Made by a program: the position numbers and the translations under genes. DNA of 64,000 bases from Fibrobacter sp. UWR4. Its GTDB lineage: Bacteria > Fibrobacterota > Fibrobacteria > Fibrobacterales > Fibrobacteraceae. The notes below the pieces were generated by a model. It ran no database searches and was not told the origin of the DNA. It saw only the letters and a list, made by a program, of their open reading frames with translations. The stretch lies in contig NZ_QGDU01000004.1 of the NCBI RefSeq assembly GCF_003149045.1, forward strand, positions 1-64,000, read 5' to 3'. This document shows, piece after piece, positions 3,948 through 63,789 of this stretch (its first letter is position 1; every line of letters starts with the position of its first letter).

Positions 3948-6221
3948 TTACTTGTTGTTGAGCTTAATCAAGTTCAGGGCGGAACCGGCCTTGAACCATG
4001 CCCACTGCTGATCGTTGTAGGTGTGGTTCAAAGTGATATTGTCGACGGAGCCGTCCTTGTGGTGGGCTACCAGAGTGAAGGGCTTGCCCGGAGCAAAGGC
4101 GGTGAGACCCTGGATGTCGAACACATCCTGTTCCTGAATCTTGTCGTAATCGGCAGGATTTGCGAAGGTGAGGGCCAGCATACCCTGCTTCTTCAGGTTG
4201 GTTTCGTGAATACGGGCGAAGCTCTTCACGATCACGGCCTTGACGCCCAGGAAGCGGGGTTCCATGGCAGCGTGTTCGCGGCTGGAGCCTTCACCGTAGT
4301 TTTCGTCACCGATCACGATGGAGCCTGTGCCCTTGGCCTTGTAAACCTTGGCCAGTTCCGGAACTTCCTTGTATTCGCCACACTGGCAGAGAACCTTGTT
4401 GGTTTCGCCATTGAATGCGTTCACGGCACCGATGAGCATGTTGTTGGAAATGTTTTCCAGATGACCGCGGTAGTTGAGCCACGGACCAGCCATGGAGATA
4501 TGGTCGGTGGTGCACTTGCCCTTGGCCTTGATCAGGATGGGGGCACCGGCGATGTCCTTGCCGTCCCATGCGGCAAAGGGTGCCAGAACCTGGAGGCGCT
4601 TGCTTTCGGGGTTGATGCTCACGGTAATGGAGGAACCGTCTTCTGCAGGAGCCTGGAAACCGGCGTCCTTCACGTCGAAGCCCTTAGGCGGCAGTTCGCA
4701 CTGTTCAGGAGGATCCAGCTTAACAGCCTTGCCTTCCATGTTCACGAGAGTGTCGGTCATGGGGTTGAAACGAATGTCGCCAGAGAGGGCTGCAATCACA
4801 GCCATCAACGGAGAGGCGACGAAAGCGTGGGTGTTGGGGTTGCCATCGGCGCGCTTTGCAAAGTTACGGTTGAAGGAGTGAACGATGGTGTTCAGTTCCT
4901 TCTTGTCGGCTCCTGCACGGTCCCAACGGCCAATGCAAGGACCGCAGGCGTTGGTCATGATGGTTGCGCCAAACTGCTTGAACAGGTCGATGAGACCGTC
5001 GCGTTCTGCAGTGTAGCGGACCTGTTCGGAACCCGGGTTGATGATCAGCGGGCACTTGGGGGTAAGACCCTTGGCCAGAGCCTGCTTGATCATGCTTGCT
5101 GCCATGAACAAATCTTCGTAGCTGGAGTTGGTGCAGGAACCGATGAGGGCTGCGGAAACAACAGGAGTGGATTCCGGCTTAGCTTCAGTTGCCTTGATGG
5201 ATTCTGCCATGTCGGTAACGGCAAATGCGCGGTCCGGGCTGAAGGGACCATTGTAATGGGGAACGAGGGTGGAAAGGTCGATTTCCACAACGCGGTCGAA
5301 GTACTTTTCCGGTTCGGCTTCAACTTCCGGGTCTGCCTGGAGGTAAGAAGCGATCTTGTCGGCGGCTTCGGCAACTTCTGCACGGCCGGTAACCTTGAGG
5401 TAACGGCTCATGGAATCATCGTAGCTGAAGGTAGAGCAGGTGGCACCCACTTCTGCACCCATGTTGGCGATGGTAGCCTTGCCGGTAGCGGAGAGGCTAC
5501 GTGCGCCTTCGCCGAAGTATTCAATAATAGCGTTGGTGCCGCCCTTAACGGTGAGGATGCCAGCTAGCTTCAGGATGATGTCCTTAGCGGTTGCAAAGCC
5601 CTGGAGCTTACCGGTGAGCTTCACACCGATCATCTTCGGGTACTTCAATTCCCAGGGGAGGCCAACCATGGCGTCCACAGCGTCAGCACCGCCAACACCG
5701 ATAGCCAGCATGCCGAGACCGCCTGCGTTCACTGTGTGGGAGTCGGTACCGATCATCATACCACCCGGGAAGGCGTAGTTTTCGAGAACCACCTGGTGAA
5801 TAATGCCTGCGCCCGGAAGCCAGCAGTCAATGCCGTACTTTGCGGAAACGGACTGGAGGAAGTCGTACACTTCCTTACTGTCGGACTTTGCCTTGGGAAG
5901 GTCAATTTCCACACCTTCCTTGGCGATGATCAAGTGGTCGCAATGTACAGAACTTGGAACAGCGACCTTGGATTTTCCAGCAGTTGTAAACTGGAGGAGT
6001 GCCATCTGGGCGGTTGCGTCCTGCATGGCAACGCGGTCCGGGTTAAATTCGGCAAAATCAGTACCACGAACATACTGCTTGGATTCTGCACCGTCGATCA
6101 AATGGGTGTAGAGAATCTTTTCTGCAAGGGTGAGGGGGCGGCCAAGGAGCTTGCGGGCGCCGTCAACGCGGGCTGGCATCTTGGCATAGACCTTCTGGAT
6201 CATGTCGAAATTGAAAAGCAT
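3948..6221 (-). CDS. acn: aconitate hydratase
   Basis: Isomerises citrate to isocitrate in the TCA cycle, in the cytoplasm, using a [4Fe-4S] cluster. The protein is 757 residues, the length of mitochondrial-type aconitases rather than AcnA (~890) or AcnB (~865). Visible signatures are [32 protein letters not shown] and CGPCIGRWD, which supply the three cluster cysteines. The C-terminal swivel domain carries [16 protein letters not shown]. The start at 6221 is set by the ribosome-binding site GAGGTAACT directly before ATG; a longer reading to 6314 would pass through the leader and an upstream terminator. The first ~105 codons, the leader and the terminator upstream are duplicated at 7054-7457. 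The gene symbol is given generically, because the subfamily naming (acnA or aco) varies. Confidence 0.95.
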
Positions 6222-6261
6222 AGTTACCTCGTTAAATTTTAACGGTCTAAATTTAGAAAAA

Positions 6262-6293
6262 TCAAAAAATCGGTTGGATTTCTCCAACCGATT
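6262..6293 (-). terminator. intrinsic terminator of the 6330-6956 gene
   Basis: On the minus strand an 11-bp stem (AATCGGTTGGA / TCCAACCGATT) with a GAAA-type loop is followed by T6. It lies between the lipoprotein stop and the aconitase leader, and is one end of the duplicated block. Confidence 0.8.
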
Positions 6294-6329
6294 ATATTGC
6301 AAAATTTGTGCCAAGAATTGAAGTGAAAG

Positions 6330-7037: not shown

Positions 7038-7370
7038 TCAATATTTGTTTGCGATTTCTACACCTTCCTTGGCGATAATCAAGTGGTCGCAATGTATAGA
7101 ACTTGGAACAGCGACCTTGGATTTTCCAGCAGTTGTAAACTGGAGAAGTGCCATCTGGGCGGTTGCGTCCTGCATGGCCACACGGTCCGGATGGAATTCG
7201 GCAAAATCCGTACCGCGAACGTACTGCTTGCTTTCTGCACCGTTGATCAAGTGGGTGTAGAGAATCTTTTCTGCAAGGGTGAGGGGGCGGCCAAGAAGCT
7301 TGCGGGCACCGTCAACGCGGGCCGGCATCTTGGCATAGACCTTCTGGATCATGTCGAAATTAAAAAGCAT
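7038..7370 (-). pseudogene. truncated 5' duplicate of aconitase
   Basis: A 110-codon frame whose first ~105 residues match the aconitase N-terminus almost exactly (three substitutions: HLID to HLIN, EFNP to EFHP, SSVH to SSIH), then diverge into ANKY and stop. The same ribosome-binding site (GAGGTAACT) and leader precede it. I count about 19 nucleotide differences over ~310 nt against three amino-acid changes. Most of the divergence therefore happened under selection on protein sequence, in a full-length copy or in another strain, before truncation. It lacks all cluster cysteines and cannot be an active aconitase. It may still be transcribed and translated, because a TATTTTTG promoter-like motif precedes it and a terminator closes it. 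Confidence 0.85.
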
Positions 7371-7399
7371 AGTTACCTCTGTTTGTTTTTAACGAACCA

Positions 7400-7430
7400 A
7401 AAATAAAAAATCGGCCGGGAAAATCCGTCC
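7400..7430 (-). terminator. intrinsic terminator of the 7468-8658 gene
   Basis: Minus-strand stem TCGGACGG / CCGGCCGA (one mismatch) is followed by T6ATTTTT. It is the counterpart, within the duplicated block, of the terminator at 6262-6293. Confidence 0.65.
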
Positions 7431-7467
7431 GATTGTTTGCAAAATTTATGCCAAGAAGGGTATTGTT

Positions 7468-44882: not shown

Positions 44883-44897
44883 TCGGTTTTCTTGGAG

Positions 44898-44925
44898 TCA
44901 TTCTGAGCGTAAGCGAAGAATCTAG
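44898..44925 (+). repeat. TCATTCTGAGC...GAAGAATCTAG repeat
   Basis: A 28-nt copy (TCATTCTGAGCGTAAGCGAAG then AATCTAG) downstream of the LpoB-like gene. The arms ATTCT / AGAAT can pair. Other copies are at 50824, 62844 and 63762. Confidence 0.7.
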
Positions 44926-45023: not shown

Positions 45024-46196
45024 ATGATCAGTATTACCAAGCTTTTGATGGATGCTCCTAACTATGGAGACCAACTTCGTTACACCCCCAAGGCTCACGA
45101 ATCCAAGAACGGTGTTTCTGAAGGCCGTGGCCCGGTAGTGGTATGGAATTGCACCAAGACCTGTAACTTGAAGTGTGTTCACTGCTATGCACGTTCTGAA
45201 GCTATCAAGTATCAGAACGAACTTACCCACGAAGAAGGCTTGGCTCTCATTGATCAGCTTGCGGAATTTAACGTTCCCGTGATTCTGTTTAGCGGTGGCG
45301 AACCGCTGCTCCGTCCGGATTTCTTTGAATTGGCCAATTATGCTGCCAGTAAGGGAATTCGCCCCACCATTTCTACCAATGGCACCTGCATTACTCCGGA
45401 TGTGGCTCAGAAACTGAAGGATATGGGCGTTGGCTATGTAGGCATTAGCCTGGATGGGAACGAGTCTACTCACGACAAGTTCCGCGGTAAGGAAGGTGCC
45501 TACCAGTTGGCTATTCGCGGTATTCGTAACTGCGTGGCAACTGGACAGAAGGTTGGCCTCCGCTTTACCATCACCAAGGACAATTTCCGCGATCTGAATT
45601 CCATTTTCGACCTGATTGAAGCTGAAAATATCGATCGCGCCTGCTTCTACCATCTGGTCTATAGTGGCCGAGGCAGTGGCATTGTGGATCATGACCTGAC
45701 TCATGAAGAAAGCCGTGAAGTAATGGACCTGATTATTGATCGCGTTCTTGATTTCAAGAAGCGTGGCCTGAACAAGGAAATCCTGACGGTGGATAATCAC
45801 GCTGATGCAGTGTACCTCTATCAGCGCATGAAACGAGAAGATCCGGAACGCGCCAAGAAGATTCTTGAACTGATTCAGTGTAATGGCGGTAACCGCAGCG
45901 GCATGGCTTTTGGTAACATTGATAGCATTGGCAATGTCCATCCGGACCAGTTTACTCAGTACATTACCCTGGGTAACGTTCGTGAACGCAAGTTCGGCGA
46001 TATCTGGACGGATGAATCCAATCCCATTATGGCTGGCCTCAAGAACCGCAAGCCCCTCCTGAAGGGACGTTGCCCCAAGTGCGCCTTCCTGAATCTCTGC
46101 AATGGTAACTTCCGTACCCGTGCAGAAGCTGTTACGGGCGACTTCTGGGAAATGGATCCGGCCTGCTACTTGACTGACGACGAAGTGGTGATTTAG
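45024..46196 (+). CDS. ahbC: 12,18-didecarboxysiroheme deacetylase (AhbC)
   Basis: Radical SAM enzyme that removes the two acetate chains of didecarboxysiroheme to give Fe-coproporphyrin III in the siroheme-dependent heme route. 390 residues. Sequence start MISITKLLMDAPNYGDQLRY is AhbC-like. The cluster motif is VVVWNCTKTCNLKCVHCYARS (CxxxCxxC) and the C terminus has a SPASM-like second-cluster region (GRCPKCAFLNLCNGNFRTRA, plus MDPACYL). The homologue NirJ (heme d1) is similar, but no nirS, nirF or nirN accompanies it, and fused siroheme decarboxylase follows 8 nt downstream. AhbC is therefore preferred; AhbD would lack this N terminus. Confidence 0.82.
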   Translation: MISITKLLMDAPNYGDQLRYTPKAHESKNGVSEGRGPVVVWNCTKTCNLKCVHCYARSEAIKYQNELTHEEGLALIDQLAEFNVPVILFSGGEPLLRPDFFELANYAASKGIRPTISTNGTCITPDVAQKLKDMGVGYVGISLDGNESTHDKFRGKEGAYQLAIRGIRNCVATGQKVGLRFTITKDNFRDLNSIFDLIEAENIDRACFYHLVYSGRGSGIVDHDLTHEESREVMDLIIDRVLDFKKRGLNKEILTVDNHADAVYLYQRMKREDPERAKKILELIQCNGGNRSGMAFGNIDSIGNVHPDQFTQYITLGNVRERKFGDIWTDESNPIMAGLKNRKPLLKGRCPKCAFLNLCNGNFRTRAEAVTGDFWEMDPACYLTDDEVVI

Positions 46197-46204
46197 ACGA
46201 GAGA

Positions 46205-47239
46205 ATGTCGGATTTAGAACAACGTATTCTTGATGTTATCCAAGATGGCTTTCCTGTCGTGGAGCGCCCTTATGCTGCTATTGCGGATTTGCTGAATAGG
46301 AGTGCTGCAAGTCTTGCTGATGGATGTCGGCATTTGCGGTGTTGTTCTGAACAGCAGGTTTTTGATGTTGTCGAATCCTTGCGTTCCTCGGGCGTAATCC
46401 GTCGCATTGGGGGCGTGTACGACACGAAGCGTCTTGGTCTGGTCAGTCGCCTGTGTGCAGGAAAAGTTCCCGAAAATCGGCTGGACCAGTTTGCCGCTAC
46501 TGTCATGGAAATTTCCGCTATTACCCACAATTACATTCGCTCTCACGAATACAATGTGTGGTTTACCGTGATTGCGGAAAATGAAACGGCGCTCCAGACC
46601 ATTATTGAAAATCTCTGCGGGTTGACTGCTTTGCATGACGTCCATTCCATGCCTGCCAGGAAAATGTTCAAGATCAATACCGTGATGACTCGGCAGTCCT
46701 GTTCGCAGAAATCTTCAGGAACAAACCCTATGGGTCATGCTGGGGAAACTCAACATCAGCTGCTGACGCATGAAGACAAAATCCGAATTCGTTTGCTGAG
46801 CGGCGATATTCCTCATACTCTGACTCCGTTTAAGGATGTGTTCCAGAACGCGAGATTGTGCGAATCAATGTGCTTTGTTGATTTCTTGGATTGTGCTCGT
46901 AGGGATATTTCTGAAAAACGCATGCGTCGTTTTGGCGCTGTCCTGCGTCATCAGCAGGCGGGCTTCCCTTACAATGCCATGGTCTGCTTTGATGTAGGGG
47001 AAAATGCCTCCGAGGCTGGTGCAAAATTGGCGGCCAACCCTCATGTGTCTCACTGCTACGAACGTCCACCTTTTGAAGGATTTCCCTACAATGTTTACGG
47101 GATGTTCCATGCCCAAAGTGAAGATGAATTGTCCAGATTCGTCCAGGAGGCCGCAGAAACGCTTGGAAACCCGAAGTACGCGGTTCTTCATTCCCTGAAG
47201 GAATTAAAGAAAACGAGCTACAAGTATTTTGCGGAATAG
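46205..47239 (+). CDS. ahbAB: fused siroheme decarboxylase (AhbA-AhbB)
   Basis: Decarboxylates siroheme to 12,18-didecarboxysiroheme. Two AsnC/Lrp-like halves lie on one 344-residue chain. The first half (1-~165) has the wing SSGVIRRIGGVYDTKRLGL and the active-site-like HNYIRSHEYNVWFTVIAENE; the second (~190-344) has MRRFGAVLRHQQAGFPYNAM and the motif HCYERPPFEGFPYNVYGMFHA, ending in SLKELKKTSYKYF. In most organisms AhbA and AhbB are separate subunits. The first half also carries an extra, cysteine-containing insertion (GCRHLRCC, residues ~41-48) in the HTH region. Between the halves is a serine-rich linker (SCSQKSSGTNPMG). Heme d1-type NirDL fusions are the alternative reading. Confidence 0.8.
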   Translation: MSDLEQRILDVIQDGFPVVERPYAAIADLLNRSAASLADGCRHLRCCSEQQVFDVVESLRSSGVIRRIGGVYDTKRLGLVSRLCAGKVPENRLDQFAATVMEISAITHNYIRSHEYNVWFTVIAENETALQTIIENLCGLTALHDVHSMPARKMFKINTVMTRQSCSQKSSGTNPMGHAGETQHQLLTHEDKIRIRLLSGDIPHTLTPFKDVFQNARLCESMCFVDFLDCARRDISEKRMRRFGAVLRHQQAGFPYNAMVCFDVGENASEAGAKLAANPHVSHCYERPPFEGFPYNVYGMFHAQSEDELSRFVQEAAETLGNPKYAVLHSLKELKKTSYKYFAE

Positions 47240-47337: not shown

Positions 47338-48630
47338 ATGCGTAAGATTTACATGGCAGGAATGAATCATAAGGTGGCGGAAATTGCCGTCCGAGAGAAG
47401 TTTTACATTCCCATGGATGTGAAAACCGAAGCTCTCAAGAATAATCCTTTTGATGAACTTTTGATTCTTGCCACTTGTAACCGCACGGAAGTTTATGTGG
47501 CCTCTGATCGAACTCTGGAACAGGATGAACTGGTCCGCTATGTTTGCGATCTTGCTCATCAGAAGTACGAGGATTTCGTCCAGTTCTTTTATTGTTCTGA
47601 AGGGGATGCGGTTGTCCGGCATGTGATGAATGTCTGTGCTGGCCTTGACTCAGTGGCGGTGGGCGAGGATCAGATCCTTCACCAGATTGGCCGCGCTTAC
47701 GAAACTGCTCATCAGCATGGCACAACGGGAAATAGCCTGAATAAGCTTTTCCAGAGTGCAATCCATACTACAAAACGGATCAAGACGGAAACCAACTTGA
47801 GTAAACTCAGTTGCAACATTCCGTTCCTGGCCATGAAACAGGTTCAGAAGACTTTTGACGACCTGGAAAATCGTTCCGTGTACATTGTTGGCCTAGGGGA
47901 AATGGGTTCCCTGATGCTCAAGTACGTTCAGGAAAATACCACCAAAATTTTTGCCAGCAGCAGGACGTTCGCCAATGCAGAAAAGTTTGGGGATGTGCTG
48001 ACTCCAGTTCCTTTTGAAAATCGCTACAGTGTGATGGGTAAGGCGGATGTAATGATTCTTTGCAGTGCCTGCCAGGAACCTATTGTCACGAAAAGTGAAT
48101 ACAAAAAGAATGTCATGCCGACTCAGGTCGGCATCGGCTGTTCCAATAAGCAATTGGAAAGGAATCGACTTGTCATAGATTTAGGCAGTCCGCGAAATGC
48201 GGAAGCGTCTATTGGTGAATTGCCGGGCGTCCAGTACGTTTGCGTGGATGACCTGGAAAAGATAGTTTCTGAAAATCGTCGACTTCGCATGATTGAACTG
48301 GAAGCCGCCCAGAGGATCCTCCAGGAAGGTATTGAAGAATTCCTGCAATGGTATCGCATGGATGACGTGGCCAAGCAAATCAATATCCATGCAAGTCAGA
48401 TGGTTTCTACTGCCGAAGAGGAGTGTGAAAAACTTCTCCGCTCCATGCCTGATTTGTCTGCCGAAGATTCTGAACGCATCAGGATGATGTATGTCCGTTT
48501 TGCAAAGAAGATGGCCAACGATTATTTGTACAAGGTGAAAGCTGAAAACTCCGCTGAAGATGTAAAAATTTTCCTGGATTGTCTTGATAAAGTCATGCTG
48601 ACGAAAACCGGCATGACGGGGGTAAAATGA
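47338..48630 (+). CDS. hemA: glutamyl-tRNA reductase
   Basis: First committed step of tetrapyrrole synthesis by the C5 route: reduces Glu-tRNA to glutamate-1-semialdehyde with NADPH. 430 residues. Visible: start MRKIYMAGMNHKVAEIAVRE, catalytic-cysteine motif LLILATCNRTEVYV, GEDQILHQIGRAYETAHQ, NAD-binding VYIVGLGEMGSLMLKY and LVIDLGSPRNAEASI. No ribosome-binding site before the ATG; a TACATTTG motif sits 4 nt upstream. Its stop overlaps hemC (ATGA). The partner hemL is not in the window. Confidence 0.95.
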   Translation: MRKIYMAGMNHKVAEIAVREKFYIPMDVKTEALKNNPFDELLILATCNRTEVYVASDRTLEQDELVRYVCDLAHQKYEDFVQFFYCSEGDAVVRHVMNVCAGLDSVAVGEDQILHQIGRAYETAHQHGTTGNSLNKLFQSAIHTTKRIKTETNLSKLSCNIPFLAMKQVQKTFDDLENRSVYIVGLGEMGSLMLKYVQENTTKIFASSRTFANAEKFGDVLTPVPFENRYSVMGKADVMILCSACQEPIVTKSEYKKNVMPTQVGIGCSNKQLERNRLVIDLGSPRNAEASIGELPGVQYVCVDDLEKIVSENRRLRMIELEAAQRILQEGIEEFLQWYRMDDVAKQINIHASQMVSTAEEECEKLLRSMPDLSAEDSERIRMMYVRFAKKMANDYLYKVKAENSAEDVKIFLDCLDKVMLTKTGMTGVK

Positions 48631-49592: not shown

Positions 49593-49657
49593 AAAAGAAG
49601 ACTTCTACATTGGGATTTGAAATTTCCACAGATATTCCATTTATTTCTAAATTTGGA

Positions 49658-51313
49658 ATGATGAATGGAAAAGTTTATTTGATTGGTGCGGGTCCTGGTG
49701 ATCCGGGATTGTTCACCCTGAAAGGGAAGTCTATTTTGGAGGCGGCCGATGTGGTCGTCTATGATCGACTTGTTTCCCCCTCGATTCTGGCTTTTTGCAA
49801 TGAAAAGGCTAAAATGGTGGATGTGGGCAAGATGCCTACACATCATAAGGTGAAACAGTCCGAAATCAATAAACTGCTGGTGAAGTTCGCCCAGGAAATG
49901 CCTGGGGCAACCATTGCTCGCCTAAAGGGCGGAGATCCCTTTGTTTTTGGAAGAGGCGGTGAAGAAGGCCTTGAACTGGTCGAGGCTGGAATTGAATTTG
50001 AAGTGGTTCCTGGCATTACATCAGCCATTTCCGTTCCTGCCTATGCAGGTATTCCTGTAAGCCATCGTGGAATTGCAACGAGCTTTCATATTATCACAGG
50101 CCATGAACGAGAAGATGGTGAGGCCGGTGGCCTTGATTTTGACGCGCTAGCCAAGTGCCCGGGTACTTTGATTTTCCTTATGGGCATTTCCAATATGGAA
50201 ACGATTTCCCGACGCTTGATCGAATGCGGTAAGGATCCTAAGACACCTTTGGCTTTTATTGAAAAGGGAACCACTCCTTATCAGCGTACAGTGACCTGCA
50301 CTTTGGAAACGGCAGGGGAGACTATTGTCCGTGAAAATGTGACCGCTCCTGCTATTACCATTATGGGCGGTGTGGTGGAACTGGGTAATACACTTGCCTG
50401 GCGAAAGAAAATGCCGCTCTCCGGTAAGCGTCTTGTGGTGACCCGCGCTGCAAAACAGTCTAGCGGAATCACTGCTCGATTGACCGCTCTCGGTGCCGAA
50501 GTCATTGAAACACCTATGATCGAGACTCGTGGGGTTGAACCTCGCGTTGGTTCTTTGGACGGGAATGTTGCAGATTTTGCGGACCTTGCAAACTTTGATG
50601 TCCTCGCATTCACAAGTACGAATGGCGTAGAAAGTTTCTTCGAATCTTTGTTCAAGGCGGGCTTGGATATTCGTGTCCTTGCGGGTAAGAAAATTGCTTC
50701 TGTGGGTAAGATCACCGAAAAGAAACTGCAGGAACGAGGCATCCGTTGCGATTATGTTCCTGAGGATCATACGGGCGAAGGGCTGGGCAAACTGCTTGCT
50801 TCGATGTGTGCTTCCGTCCCGTGTCATTCTGAGCTATACGAAACTAAGAACTTTAGTTCTCAAGTTGAGTTATGCCCTTTGGGTAGAAGCACGAAGTGCG
50901 AAGTCGAAGAATCTAGCATTGACGAGTCCCGCATTCTCCTGTTGCAGGGCAACCTGGCAGACGACACTCTGACGACTCTTCTCCCGAAGGCTATCCGCTG
51001 GGTGGTTTATGAAACCCTTCCGGTAACTGAAATGCCTGACTGGAAACGTGAAGCGGTCGCTACTGCAGACGCTGTGGTATTTGCAAGCTCCAGCGCCGTG
51101 GAGAATTTTGTGAAGTTGCTACCTCAAAGCACCGAAGGTGTGATCTCAATCCCCAGCGCGCAAAGCCCTCGCTTAGCGTTCTCCATCGGTCGCATGACTA
51201 CCGCCACAGCAAAGAAGTATGGCTTTGAAGTGGTTGAAAGCGAAGAAACCACCATGGATTCCTTGGTGAAGAAAGTTGTAGAATATGAAAGTTGTCCTGA
51301 TCATCGCGCATAA
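49658..51313 (+). CDS. cobA-hemD: fused uroporphyrinogen-III methyltransferase / synthase (CobA-HemD)
   Basis: Bifunctional 551-residue enzyme. Residues 1-~245 are SUMT/CobA (GKVYLIGAGPGDPGLFTLKG, VVYDRLVS, RLKGGDPFVFGRGGEE, VVPGITSAISVPAYAGIP), which make precorrin-2. Residues ~255-551 are HemD (VTRAAKQSSGITARLTALGAEVI; TSTNGVESFFESL; VFASSSAVENFVKLLP). Within HemD a 31-codon in-frame segment (50824-50916) is made of an interspersed repeat. ATG at 49658 (or 49661) suits CobA, in preference to TTG at 49610 upstream; TAAATTTG is 2 nt before it. Its end overlaps the next gene by 29 nt. Fused CobA-HemD is known from other anaerobes. Confidence 0.93.
   Translation: MMNGKVYLIGAGPGDPGLFTLKGKSILEAADVVVYDRLVSPSILAFCNEKAKMVDVGKMPTHHKVKQSEINKLLVKFAQEMPGATIARLKGGDPFVFGRGGEEGLELVEAGIEFEVVPGITSAISVPAYAGIPVSHRGIATSFHIITGHEREDGEAGGLDFDALAKCPGTLIFLMGISNMETISRRLIECGKDPKTPLAFIEKGTTPYQRTVTCTLETAGETIVRENVTAPAITIMGGVVELGNTLAWRKKMPLSGKRLVVTRAAKQSSGITARLTALGAEVIETPMIETRGVEPRVGSLDGNVADFADLANFDVLAFTSTNGVESFFESLFKAGLDIRVLAGKKIASVGKITEKKLQERGIRCDYVPEDHTGEGLGKLLASMCASVPCHSELYETKNFSSQVELCPLGRSTKCEVEESSIDESRILLLQGNLADDTLTTLLPKAIRWVVYETLPVTEMPDWKREAVATADAVVFASSSAVENFVKLLPQSTEGVISIPSAQSPRLAFSIGRMTTATAKKYGFEVVESEETTMDSLVKKVVEYESCPDHRA
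50824..50916 (+). repeat. TCATTCTGAGC repeat inserted in-frame in hemD
   Basis: A 93-nt (31-codon) copy starting TCATTCTGAGCT and ending GAAGTCGAAGAATCTAG. It has inner inverted repeats AGAAC / GTTCT and a GCACGAAGTGC palindrome. It is longer than the 28-nt copies, and encodes a serine/cysteine/glutamate-rich insert between two conserved parts of HemD. Confidence 0.7.
51121..51150 (+). repeat. CCTCAAAGC 30-mer repeat, copy A
   Basis: ACCTCAAAGCACCGAAGGTG then TGATCTCAAT. Core CACCGAAGGTG is palindromic. Lies inside the hemD part of the fused gene; two more copies are at 52231-52290. Confidence 0.55.
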
Positions 51314-52277
51314 CTGCATCCGTCCGGGCGCTTACCGCGGTTTCGAAACCGTATTGGATCGTCTCCGTCACGATATGCCTGATGCTCGCATCGCAAGCAC
51401 CAGCCTTGTGGATTTGGACAACGACCTTCGTGCCCTTTTGCGTGAGGATGTGGAGTCGGTGACGCTGTTGCCCTACTTGCTATTGAATGGACAACATTCC
51501 AAAGGGGATATTCCCGCAATTGTTGCTAACGCCCAGAAGGATTTCCCTCAAATTCCAATGACGCTTTTGCCGCCTCTTGGTGAATGGGATGGCTTTGCGG
51601 ATATGGTTGTGAAGCAGGTCTGTAAGGTGAATGAATCTCCTTTCTCCTCAAAGGCCCGAAGCTCCGACCTCAAGCCACAAAGCGTCACGAAATCATCCCT
51701 CTTCGCCATCGAAGTGAATCTGGAAGGCAAGAATGTTCTTGTGGTTGGTGGGGGCCGTATTGCCCTTCGTAAGGTGAAGACTTTGATTCCTGCAGGAGCC
51801 CGCATTACTGTTGTTGCGCCTCAGTTTGATCCTGAGTTTCACATCCTTGCGTCGGAACTTTCCGATCCCGATAAAATCGTCAATCATCAATTGGCGATCG
51901 TCAATTTGGTCGAGCGTCCCTACGAATCTTTGGACCTTCGTGGAGTTTCCATGGTGTTTATCTGTACGGACCAGCCTGTGGTAAATGCTCAGGTCAGCAA
52001 CGATGCCCGTGCCCGACGCATTATGGTGAATAATGCCTGCGATTATCTGGACGGTGATTTTATTGTTCCCGCAAGAATGGACTTCGGTGAAAATATTACC
52101 GTCACCGTTTCTACCCGTGGCCGCGCCCCCAGTCTTGCAAAGAAATTAAAACAGAAAATCCAAACGGATTGGGCTGAAGACCTAGTTCTACTAGAAAAGT
52201 CTTTTACAAGTCAAGTTGATGATAATCAGCAACCTCAAAGCGGCAACGCCGCGTCCTCACCCCTCAAAGCGCCGTAG
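51285..52277 (+). CDS. sirB-met8: fused sirohydrochlorin chelatase (CbiX/SirB-like) and precorrin-2 dehydrogenase
   Basis: A 330-residue fusion. Residues 1-~115 resemble CbiX/SirB-type chelatases (VVLIIAHNCIRPGAYRGFET; VTLLPYLLLNGQHSKGDIPA, with the expected histidines). Residues ~140-320 are the CysG-N/Met8-like dehydrogenase (NVLVVGGGRIALRKVKTLI; VFICTDQPVVNAQVSNDARA; VNNACDYLDGDFIVPARMDF). Together they would oxidise precorrin-2 and insert iron to give siroheme on one chain. Start at 51285 overlaps the previous stop by 29 nt. The junction (~116-138) is a Ser/Lys/Arg-rich linker. The last residues (QSGNAASSPLKAP) are encoded by repeat elements. Confidence 0.85.
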   Translation: MKVVLIIAHNCIRPGAYRGFETVLDRLRHDMPDARIASTSLVDLDNDLRALLREDVESVTLLPYLLLNGQHSKGDIPAIVANAQKDFPQIPMTLLPPLGEWDGFADMVVKQVCKVNESPFSSKARSSDLKPQSVTKSSLFAIEVNLEGKNVLVVGGGRIALRKVKTLIPAGARITVVAPQFDPEFHILASELSDPDKIVNHQLAIVNLVERPYESLDLRGVSMVFICTDQPVVNAQVSNDARARRIMVNNACDYLDGDFIVPARMDFGENITVTVSTRGRAPSLAKKLKQKIQTDWAEDLVLLEKSFTSQVDDNQQPQSGNAASSPLKAP

Positions 52278-54283: not shown

Positions 54284-54310
54284 TGCCCGTCGATGAGACA
54301 AAGCGACAAT

Positions 54311-54383
<73 letters not shown>

Positions 54384-54387
54384 CTAA

Positions 54388-54403
54388 GCTCTCGAAAGGG
54401 AGC
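54388..54403 (+). repeat. GAAA-tetraloop hairpin between the tRNAs
   Basis: GCTCTC GAAA GGGAGC. The core CTCGAAAGGG recurs at 54431-54440 and in the terminator after the second tRNA, suggesting duplication of the tRNA with its downstream terminator. Confidence 0.5.
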
Positions 54404-54474: not shown

Positions 54475-54491
54475 CGATCGTTACCAACAAT

Positions 54492-54564
<73 letters not shown>

Positions 54565-54570
54565 CTAAAA

Positions 54571-54597
54571 AGATCACTCGAAAGGGTGGTCTTTTTT
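54571..54597 (+). terminator. intrinsic terminator of the tRNA-Lys genes
   Basis: GATCACTC GAAA GGGTGGTC (with G-T pairs) then T6. Confidence 0.8.
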
Positions 54598-62836: not shown

Positions 62837-62843
62837 GCTGACG

Positions 62844-62923
62844 TCATTCTGAGCGAACACACTGTGTCATCCTGAGGAGCAAACACTGTGTCATCCTGAG
62901 GAGCGAAGCGACGAAGGATCTAG
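62844..62923 (+). repeat. TCATTCTGAGC-family repeat cluster
   Basis: Three consecutive units: TCATTCTGAGCGAACACACTG (62844), TCATCCTGAGGAGCAAACACTG (62867), and TCATCCTGAGGAGCGAAGCG then ACGAAGGATCTAG (62891-62923). The second and third start exactly 24 nt apart. ATCCT / AGGAT arms can pair in the last. Confidence 0.7.
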
Positions 62924-63754: not shown

Positions 63755-63761
63755 AAACACG

Positions 63762-63789
63762 TCATTCTGAACGAAGTGAAGAATCCAAG
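63762..63789 (+). repeat. TCATTCTGAGC-family repeat
   Basis: TCATTCTGAACGAAGTGAAGAATCCAAG, a single 28-nt copy between the TrmJ-like gene and dut. Confidence 0.65.

Follow-up and report, generated by a model that had tools for sequence, protein, structure and literature searches.

Single-chain siroheme decarboxylase AhbAB of Fibrobacter and a palindromic repeat in its loops

The ahbAB locus and its product

The window, a stretch of 64,000 nucleotides from Fibrobacter sp. UWR4, carries on its plus strand the gene ahbAB (46205..47239). Its product of 344 residues joins both halves of siroheme decarboxylase, AhbA and AhbB, on one chain, as a sequence-only reading of this DNA had proposed. Residues 6-159 match the NCBIfam model of AhbA with 161.5 bits (cut-off 140) and residues 195-341 that of AhbB with 185 bits (cut-off 125); every one of the 51 rows in alignment A1 reaches E<=1e-10 with both models. 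Pfam recognises a NirDL-like helix-turn-helix (HTH) domain and two stretches of AsnC-like ligand domain. The AlphaFold2 model, made from a 51-row alignment of the window and locus proteins, has a mean pLDDT of 91.5. The halves are connected, again as first read, by a linker at about residues 160-187 (46682..46765, plus strand; delimited from alignment and model), which is the least confident part of the model, with pLDDT below 50 at residues 165-175. Fused siroheme decarboxylases are already known.

The gene lies among genes of heme synthesis, all on the plus strand where coordinates are given. Upstream is the radical SAM gene nirJ1 (AhbC-like, 45024..46196; TIGR04054, 680.6 bits, cut-off 650). 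Downstream follow hemA for glutamyl-tRNA reductase (47338..48630; TIGR01035, 280.2 bits), a hemC-like gene, a cobA-hemD fusion whose ORF contains an in-frame palindromic repeat (49610..51313), a fusion of CbiX and precorrin-2 dehydrogenase for siroheme synthesis (51285..52277) and a hemB-like gene; the two fusions were identified by profile matches and the hemC-like and hemB-like genes by eye. NirJ2 is encoded away from this locus in the same genome (526.6 bits, cut-off 500), where NirJ1, NirJ2, CobA-HemD and CbiX-precorrin-2 dehydrogenase represent the remaining siroheme-to-heme route. A search for HemE (E<=0.001) was negative in this genome, which is rated 99.99% complete, and positive in 7 of 14 control genomes. 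Since NirJ1, NirJ2 and the siroheme genes are present and HemE was not found, heme is likely made via siroheme here, as far as gene content tells. The neighbouring genes are unevenly conserved: NirJ1 is 97.7% and 99.0% identical in loci L002 and L003, against 65% and 64% for AhbAB (blastp). The junction of CbiX and precorrin-2 dehydrogenase (about residues 115-140) looks by eye like a degraded repeat oriented the other way.

Is this chain really AhbA-AhbB, or a NirD-NirL enzyme of heme d1 synthesis? The best structural match is the fused NirDL of Hydrogenobacter thermophilus, which is named for heme d1 synthesis and, like the window protein, has both halves on one chain. In the phmmer ranking of PDB sequences NirDL (4ch7) precedes two Desulfovibrio AhbA/B chains and weak Lrp-like regulators, and Foldseek places 4ch7 and 4czc at the top (TM 0.70 to 4ch7 by query length) and 4czd after them. 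However, each half passes the equivalog cut-off of its own family, and in the Foldseek alignments the halves are 35-36% identical to the chains of 4czd, as against 26% for NirDL (4ch7, 4czc). Furthermore, ahbAB adjoins nirJ1 and heme genes, with NirJ2 elsewhere in the genome. A NirD-NirL identity, which would have overturned the earlier reading, is thus judged very improbable from profiles and identity. The AhbA/AhbB of Desulfovibrio desulfuricans (4czd, 4un1) share both halves and the fold with the window protein at 35-36% per half, but consist of two chains instead of one.

For the siroheme decarboxylase reading, the histidines provide a further argument. According to a comparison of heme-binding barrels, siroheme decarboxylases of solved structure have a histidine on beta-2 in each of their two domains (PMC4835899). 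H108 and H283, which lie in model strands 106-112 and 281-286 and are unvarying across 51 AhbAB rows, match these histidines and were therefore counted in favour of siroheme decarboxylase. The two Lrp/AsnC-like halves would form one barrel with siroheme bound between them, and one beta-2 histidine per half (H108, H283) would serve to take off two carboxyl groups. Judging from the families, the product would then pass to NirJ1 and NirJ2 and on to heme.

A lengthened turn with cysteines

Relatives were collected to place the protein in its genus (G000 denotes the window's genome, other G labels genomes of relatives, L labels loci and P0001 the window's AhbAB). P0001 is matched in 88 of 167 Fibrobacterota genomes and, within the genus Fibrobacter, in 70 of 80 (one genome per species). 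The gene was taken from 70 of the 88 matching genomes and from 17 named loci, all titled Fibrobacter, giving 87 loci; after exclusion of two two-chain loci and of nine exact duplicates, 76 single-chain sequences remain, the window's included. Beyond Fibrobacter, AhbA and AhbB are encoded on one chain in some cases and on two in others. A quick IQ-TREE tree of AhbAB was computed with the insert columns excluded; support is poor for 27 of its 73 inner branches.

The AhbA half contains a variable insert at its HTH turn, at about residues 33-47 (46301..46345, plus strand), with borders that depend on the alignment. The sequence-only reading had noted some 11 extra residues here; the excess is real, although its size is closer to 15. 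The phmmer alignment with Desulfovibrio desulfuricans AhbA (4czd_A), which lacks residues at this site, has a gap of 15 columns here, and the region 31-49 holds 19 positions in the window protein against 4 in 47 of the 76 sequences (range 4 to 54). In the AlphaFold2 model the HTH helices span residues 22-37 and 49-62, and the extra residues form the end of the first helix and the following loop. The motif GCRHLRCC, reported by the same reading, occupies residues 40-47 and is indeed placed by the structure prediction in the turn between the helices, with cysteines C41, C46 and C47.

Three cysteines within seven residues of a predicted loop could bind a metal or an Fe-S cluster, or act as a regulatory redox switch. 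Conservation speaks against such a site, which was rejected for that reason. The C....CC pattern occurs in the window's protein alone (1 of 76); the equally long insert of a sister (L002) has zero cysteines and aligns loosely with the window's; the close relatives L004 and L005 are without the insert, and Desulfovibrio AhbA has no residues there (the NirDL alignment begins only at residue 48). Any cysteine in the turn region is found in 15 of the 76 sequences, at unrelated positions, and L029, also with three, has another spacing. A metal-binding or redox role is accordingly hardly credible, and of the two options first offered, metal or neutral, the second is favoured. Nor is there a cysteine motif conserved in other Fibrobacter, as 49 of the 76 sequences lack the long turn altogether. 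By its sequence record, the cysteine-bearing loop is probably neutral and not a metal site.

The turn itself changes rapidly. It carries 0 to 50 extra residues among the 76 distinct sequences, exceeding 8 positions in region 31-49 in 27 of them, and the quick tree requires a minimum of 13 switches between long and short, of which starred branches force at least five. Among the nearest relatives of the window, L003 carries a repeat, L002 an insert free of cysteine, and L004 and L005 none, which points to a tolerated, drifting loop. The HTH in the AhbA half has probably lost its DNA-reading role, which may be why the turn, the linker and two places of the AhbB half accept extra residues in the alignment.

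A palindromic repeat in ahbAB and in other genes

The genome of the window harbours a dispersed palindromic repeat with the core GTCATYCTGAG(n)GAAGRATC. It is matched 67 times in G000, or at 63 places once four nested matches are merged, and the reversed control is matched nowhere; the pattern is present in 79 of 80 genomes of the genus as against 7 of 87 other Fibrobacterota genomes. In the window, pattern matches on the plus strand include an intergenic copy upstream of nirJ1 (44897..44922), a cluster of copies (62843..62920) and a variant copy with CTGAAC (63761..63785). In 30 copies, one place being counted twice, GTC is preceded by C in 17 and by T in 12, giving a CGTC or TGTC end in 29 of 30; the stem starts with AT by the pattern itself, and a tail of C+CA follows in 20 of 30. 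By eye, the stem of the 25-bp form measures 9 bp, two positions being mismatched, and its loop 3 bases; longer forms occur. The window contains other repeats as well: two direct copies of about 414 bp, 88.6% identical (5905-6317 and 7054-7457), and two of about 100 bp, 93% identical (54306-54400 and 54487-54586), the latter adjoining a tyrosine recombinase-like gene (named by eye).

These features recall the CGTC-type repetitive extragenic palindromes (REPs). As a survey of REPs describes them, they have a terminal CGTC or TGTC, AT at the first stem positions, CCA tails, a stem of 8-9 bp and a loop of 4-5, are apparently without a dedicated transposase, have intragenic copies in several species and include RPE-4 and RPE-6 of Rickettsia (PMC3733652). 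The Fibrobacter repeat, likened to them by description, shares the end and the in-frame intragenic copies and appears to share the AT start and mostly the CCA tail (PMC3733652; PMC2229807), but differs in an inner hairpin of variable length and in lying at four places of one enzyme genus-wide. Fibrobacteres is not one of the five phyla that the survey names for CGTC repeats, and the word Fibrobacter is absent from its main text (PMC3733652).

What could move the repeat? A RAYT, a tyrosine transposase flanked by REP, was considered and rejected: G000 has a single Y1_Tnp match, and the 3.4-kb locus around it contains no exact half-motif of the repeat. We take this match to resemble IS200 TnpA.

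Within the ahbAB genes the repeat recurs. A search of the 76 sequences, allowing two and one substitutions in the two repeat ends, gave 34 matches in 24 sequences against one in the reversed control. On the coding strand are 32 of the 34, in 22 sequences; the two opposite-strand matches (L034, L046) sit in conserved columns and were therefore counted as chance. The 32 copies fall at four places: the AhbA HTH turn (2, in L003 and L029), the linker (15 sequences of 76, the window's not among them), the AhbB HTH turn near residues 216-224 (2) and the AhbB barrel domain near 266-270 (13). Two reading frames are used, xHS.. in 17 cases and VI.. in 15, and peptides such as RHSEDRRDEES, CHSERSEE-like ones and VILSGAKNL recur in the inserts of different relatives. 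Exact copies of the repeat stand in ahbAB of G064 (C1:858044-858068 and 858344-858374) and G061 (C108:4909-4948). With ahbAB masked, 28 of 189 insert segments match DNA elsewhere in the collected loci or in the window (E<=0.01), some of these matches being short or to other repeats. As a control, nirJ1 gave 0 repeat matches in 52 whole or partial genes.

The copies also keep the reading frame. A length of 1 mod 3 is found in 30 of the 32 copies, that is in all 30 with clean ends, against 73 of 161 genome copies listed; the test left out L029 (38 bp, imperfect end) and L057 (23 bp, shortened), both 2 mod 3, and its p-value of 1e-9 is only rough because the copies share descent. The comparison set, some of it in genes, comprises 63 copies of G000, 50 of the 52 of G060 and, among the 123 of G064, the 48 listed, exclusive of the two in its ahbAB. 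A hydrophilic peptide is insufficient as a cause of the strand bias: the used frame VILSG.. has a mean hydropathy of +0.36 and the antisense frame ILR..QDD one of -0.27. In 26 of 30 copies neither the used nor the antisense frame is closed by a stop, and the antisense frames are open as often as the coding-strand ones. In the relatives, tolerant places of AhbAB are repeatedly occupied by a REP-like palindrome on the coding strand and at a frame-keeping length, probably through insertion.

The repeat lies in other heme genes too. The cobA-hemD ORF of the window contains a 91-bp copy (50823..50913, plus strand; sequence matches), at about residues 405-435, encoding the peptide CHSELYETKNFSSQVELCPLGRSTKCEVEES, and the insert segment of L071 matches this gene at 50821-50887 with 91% identity. 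CobA-HemD, matched in 73 of 80 genomes, was compared in 30 rows (the window and 29 relatives). The peptide core ELYETKNFSSQVELCPLG is located in one loop in the window and in two loops in the sister G096 (L139); the cores ELYETKNF/TKNFSSQ/VELCPLG occur once in the window and twice, at different loops, in L139, while the remaining 28 rows lack them. Copying of the element best accounts for finding one peptide in two loops of a single protein. In relatives, coding-strand copies are found in hemA and hemC of L033, in hemC of L032 (L033:10831-10870, L033:11948-11978 and L032:6062-6098 for these hemA and hemC copies) and in cobA-hemD of both. The gene hemA was tried as a repeat-free control and dropped, with one match in 13 segments plus the copy in hemA of L033 (a skipped duplicate).

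By a crude ORF caller, intragenic copies number 12 on the same strand and 5 on the opposite one, and copies between co-oriented ORFs 11 in the same direction and 3 in the opposite. Four of the five opposite-strand cases (two each in L032 and L033) lie within plus-strand hemC, cobA-hemD, hemA and cobA-hemD, and their antisense ORFs are therefore spurious; the fifth, L117 of G000, lies in the middle of a predicted antisense frame of 257 aa. L090, with a copy in a predicted antisense frame of 119 aa, also goes against the trend. The G000 sample covered 30 repeat loci (29 distinct) out of the 67 matches, with frames taken from stop to stop. In eight of them (L093, L097, L099, L101, L111, L112, L113 and L114) the copy is on the coding strand of an open frame of 347-799 aa, in L111 and L112 inside its first 50 residues. 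Pfam identifies repeat-bearing G000 frames as an EF-G-like GTPase, a glycosyltransferase, a nucleotidyltransferase, a Fib_succ_major protein, an acyltransferase and a DUF7149/DUF7814 protein with a methyltransferase match under the cut-off; for L101 and L114 it finds nothing. The EF-G-like GTPase (L097:636-2684, minus strand, G000) contains two in-frame repeat peptides, one found by pattern and one by eye. In L102:1501-1549 and L112:1501-1525 (G000) the repeat forms, by eye, the start of Fib_succ_major lipoprotein-like signal peptides.

Origin of the insert and its meaning

The insert of the window's own AhbAB gave no repeat match in its own genome, in the ahbAB repeat-pattern search or in the insert-segment search, and the idea of a recent repeat copy was therefore rejected. 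Instead, the ancestor of G000, G096 and G099 could have had a REP-like palindrome at its HTH turn, of which the insert is a decayed remnant. G099 (L003), the nearest tree row by path, bears a clear repeat (CHSERSVSEVEES) at the same site, and the insert of L002, of the same length, aligns loosely with that of the window; yet the window's insert has no repeat-like match, and the insert is absent from L004 and L005, which belong to the same starred set. Alternatively, the turn may have lengthened through ordinary slippage or helix extension, independently of repeats. Among the 27 lengthened turns, 25 are without a recognisable repeat, and many extend the preceding helix with LN..; G041 (L060), an order-level relative, has a long turn in a genome without an exact repeat match, so a turn can lengthen without the repeat. 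L003 and L029, however, have recognisable repeats at exactly this site. We put slippage or helix extension at about an even chance. As the insert has no repeat match and L060 of G041 shows the other course, descent from the repeat is possible for the window's cysteine insert, at somewhat below even. AhbAB is very probably a working single-chain siroheme decarboxylase, and its cysteine insert would be a neutral, fast-changing filler of a repeat-tolerant site.

The wider reading is speculative and on present evidence rather unlikely: a Fibrobacter REP family, still mobile and oriented with transcription, would act as a genus-wide natural mutagen by loop insertion, its copies being coding-strand, in register and frequent in loops of AhbAB and CobA-HemD (also in HemA and HemC of relatives) and decaying into novel loops such as the cysteine loop of the window.

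Intragenic REPs are known from other phyla (PMC3733652). Among the literature titles listed, none mentions such repeats in Fibrobacter genes, which is weak evidence of absence; looking for the repeat peptides in papers likewise found nothing, and the main text of the S85 genome paper contains neither 'palindrom' nor 'in-frame' (PMC3079729).

Protein-coding palindromes are best studied in Rickettsia. As for AhbAB itself, there is little new, as fused enzymes are known and the cysteines look neutral; it is the source of the inserts that matters. In seventy Fibrobacter genomes, one per species, a single enzyme has 32 in-frame copies that can be recognised, spread over four sites. These suffice to ask which loops tolerate insertion and how strand and frame are filtered, and also whether repeats may give rise to new protein sequence in gut bacteria with a life outside host cells.
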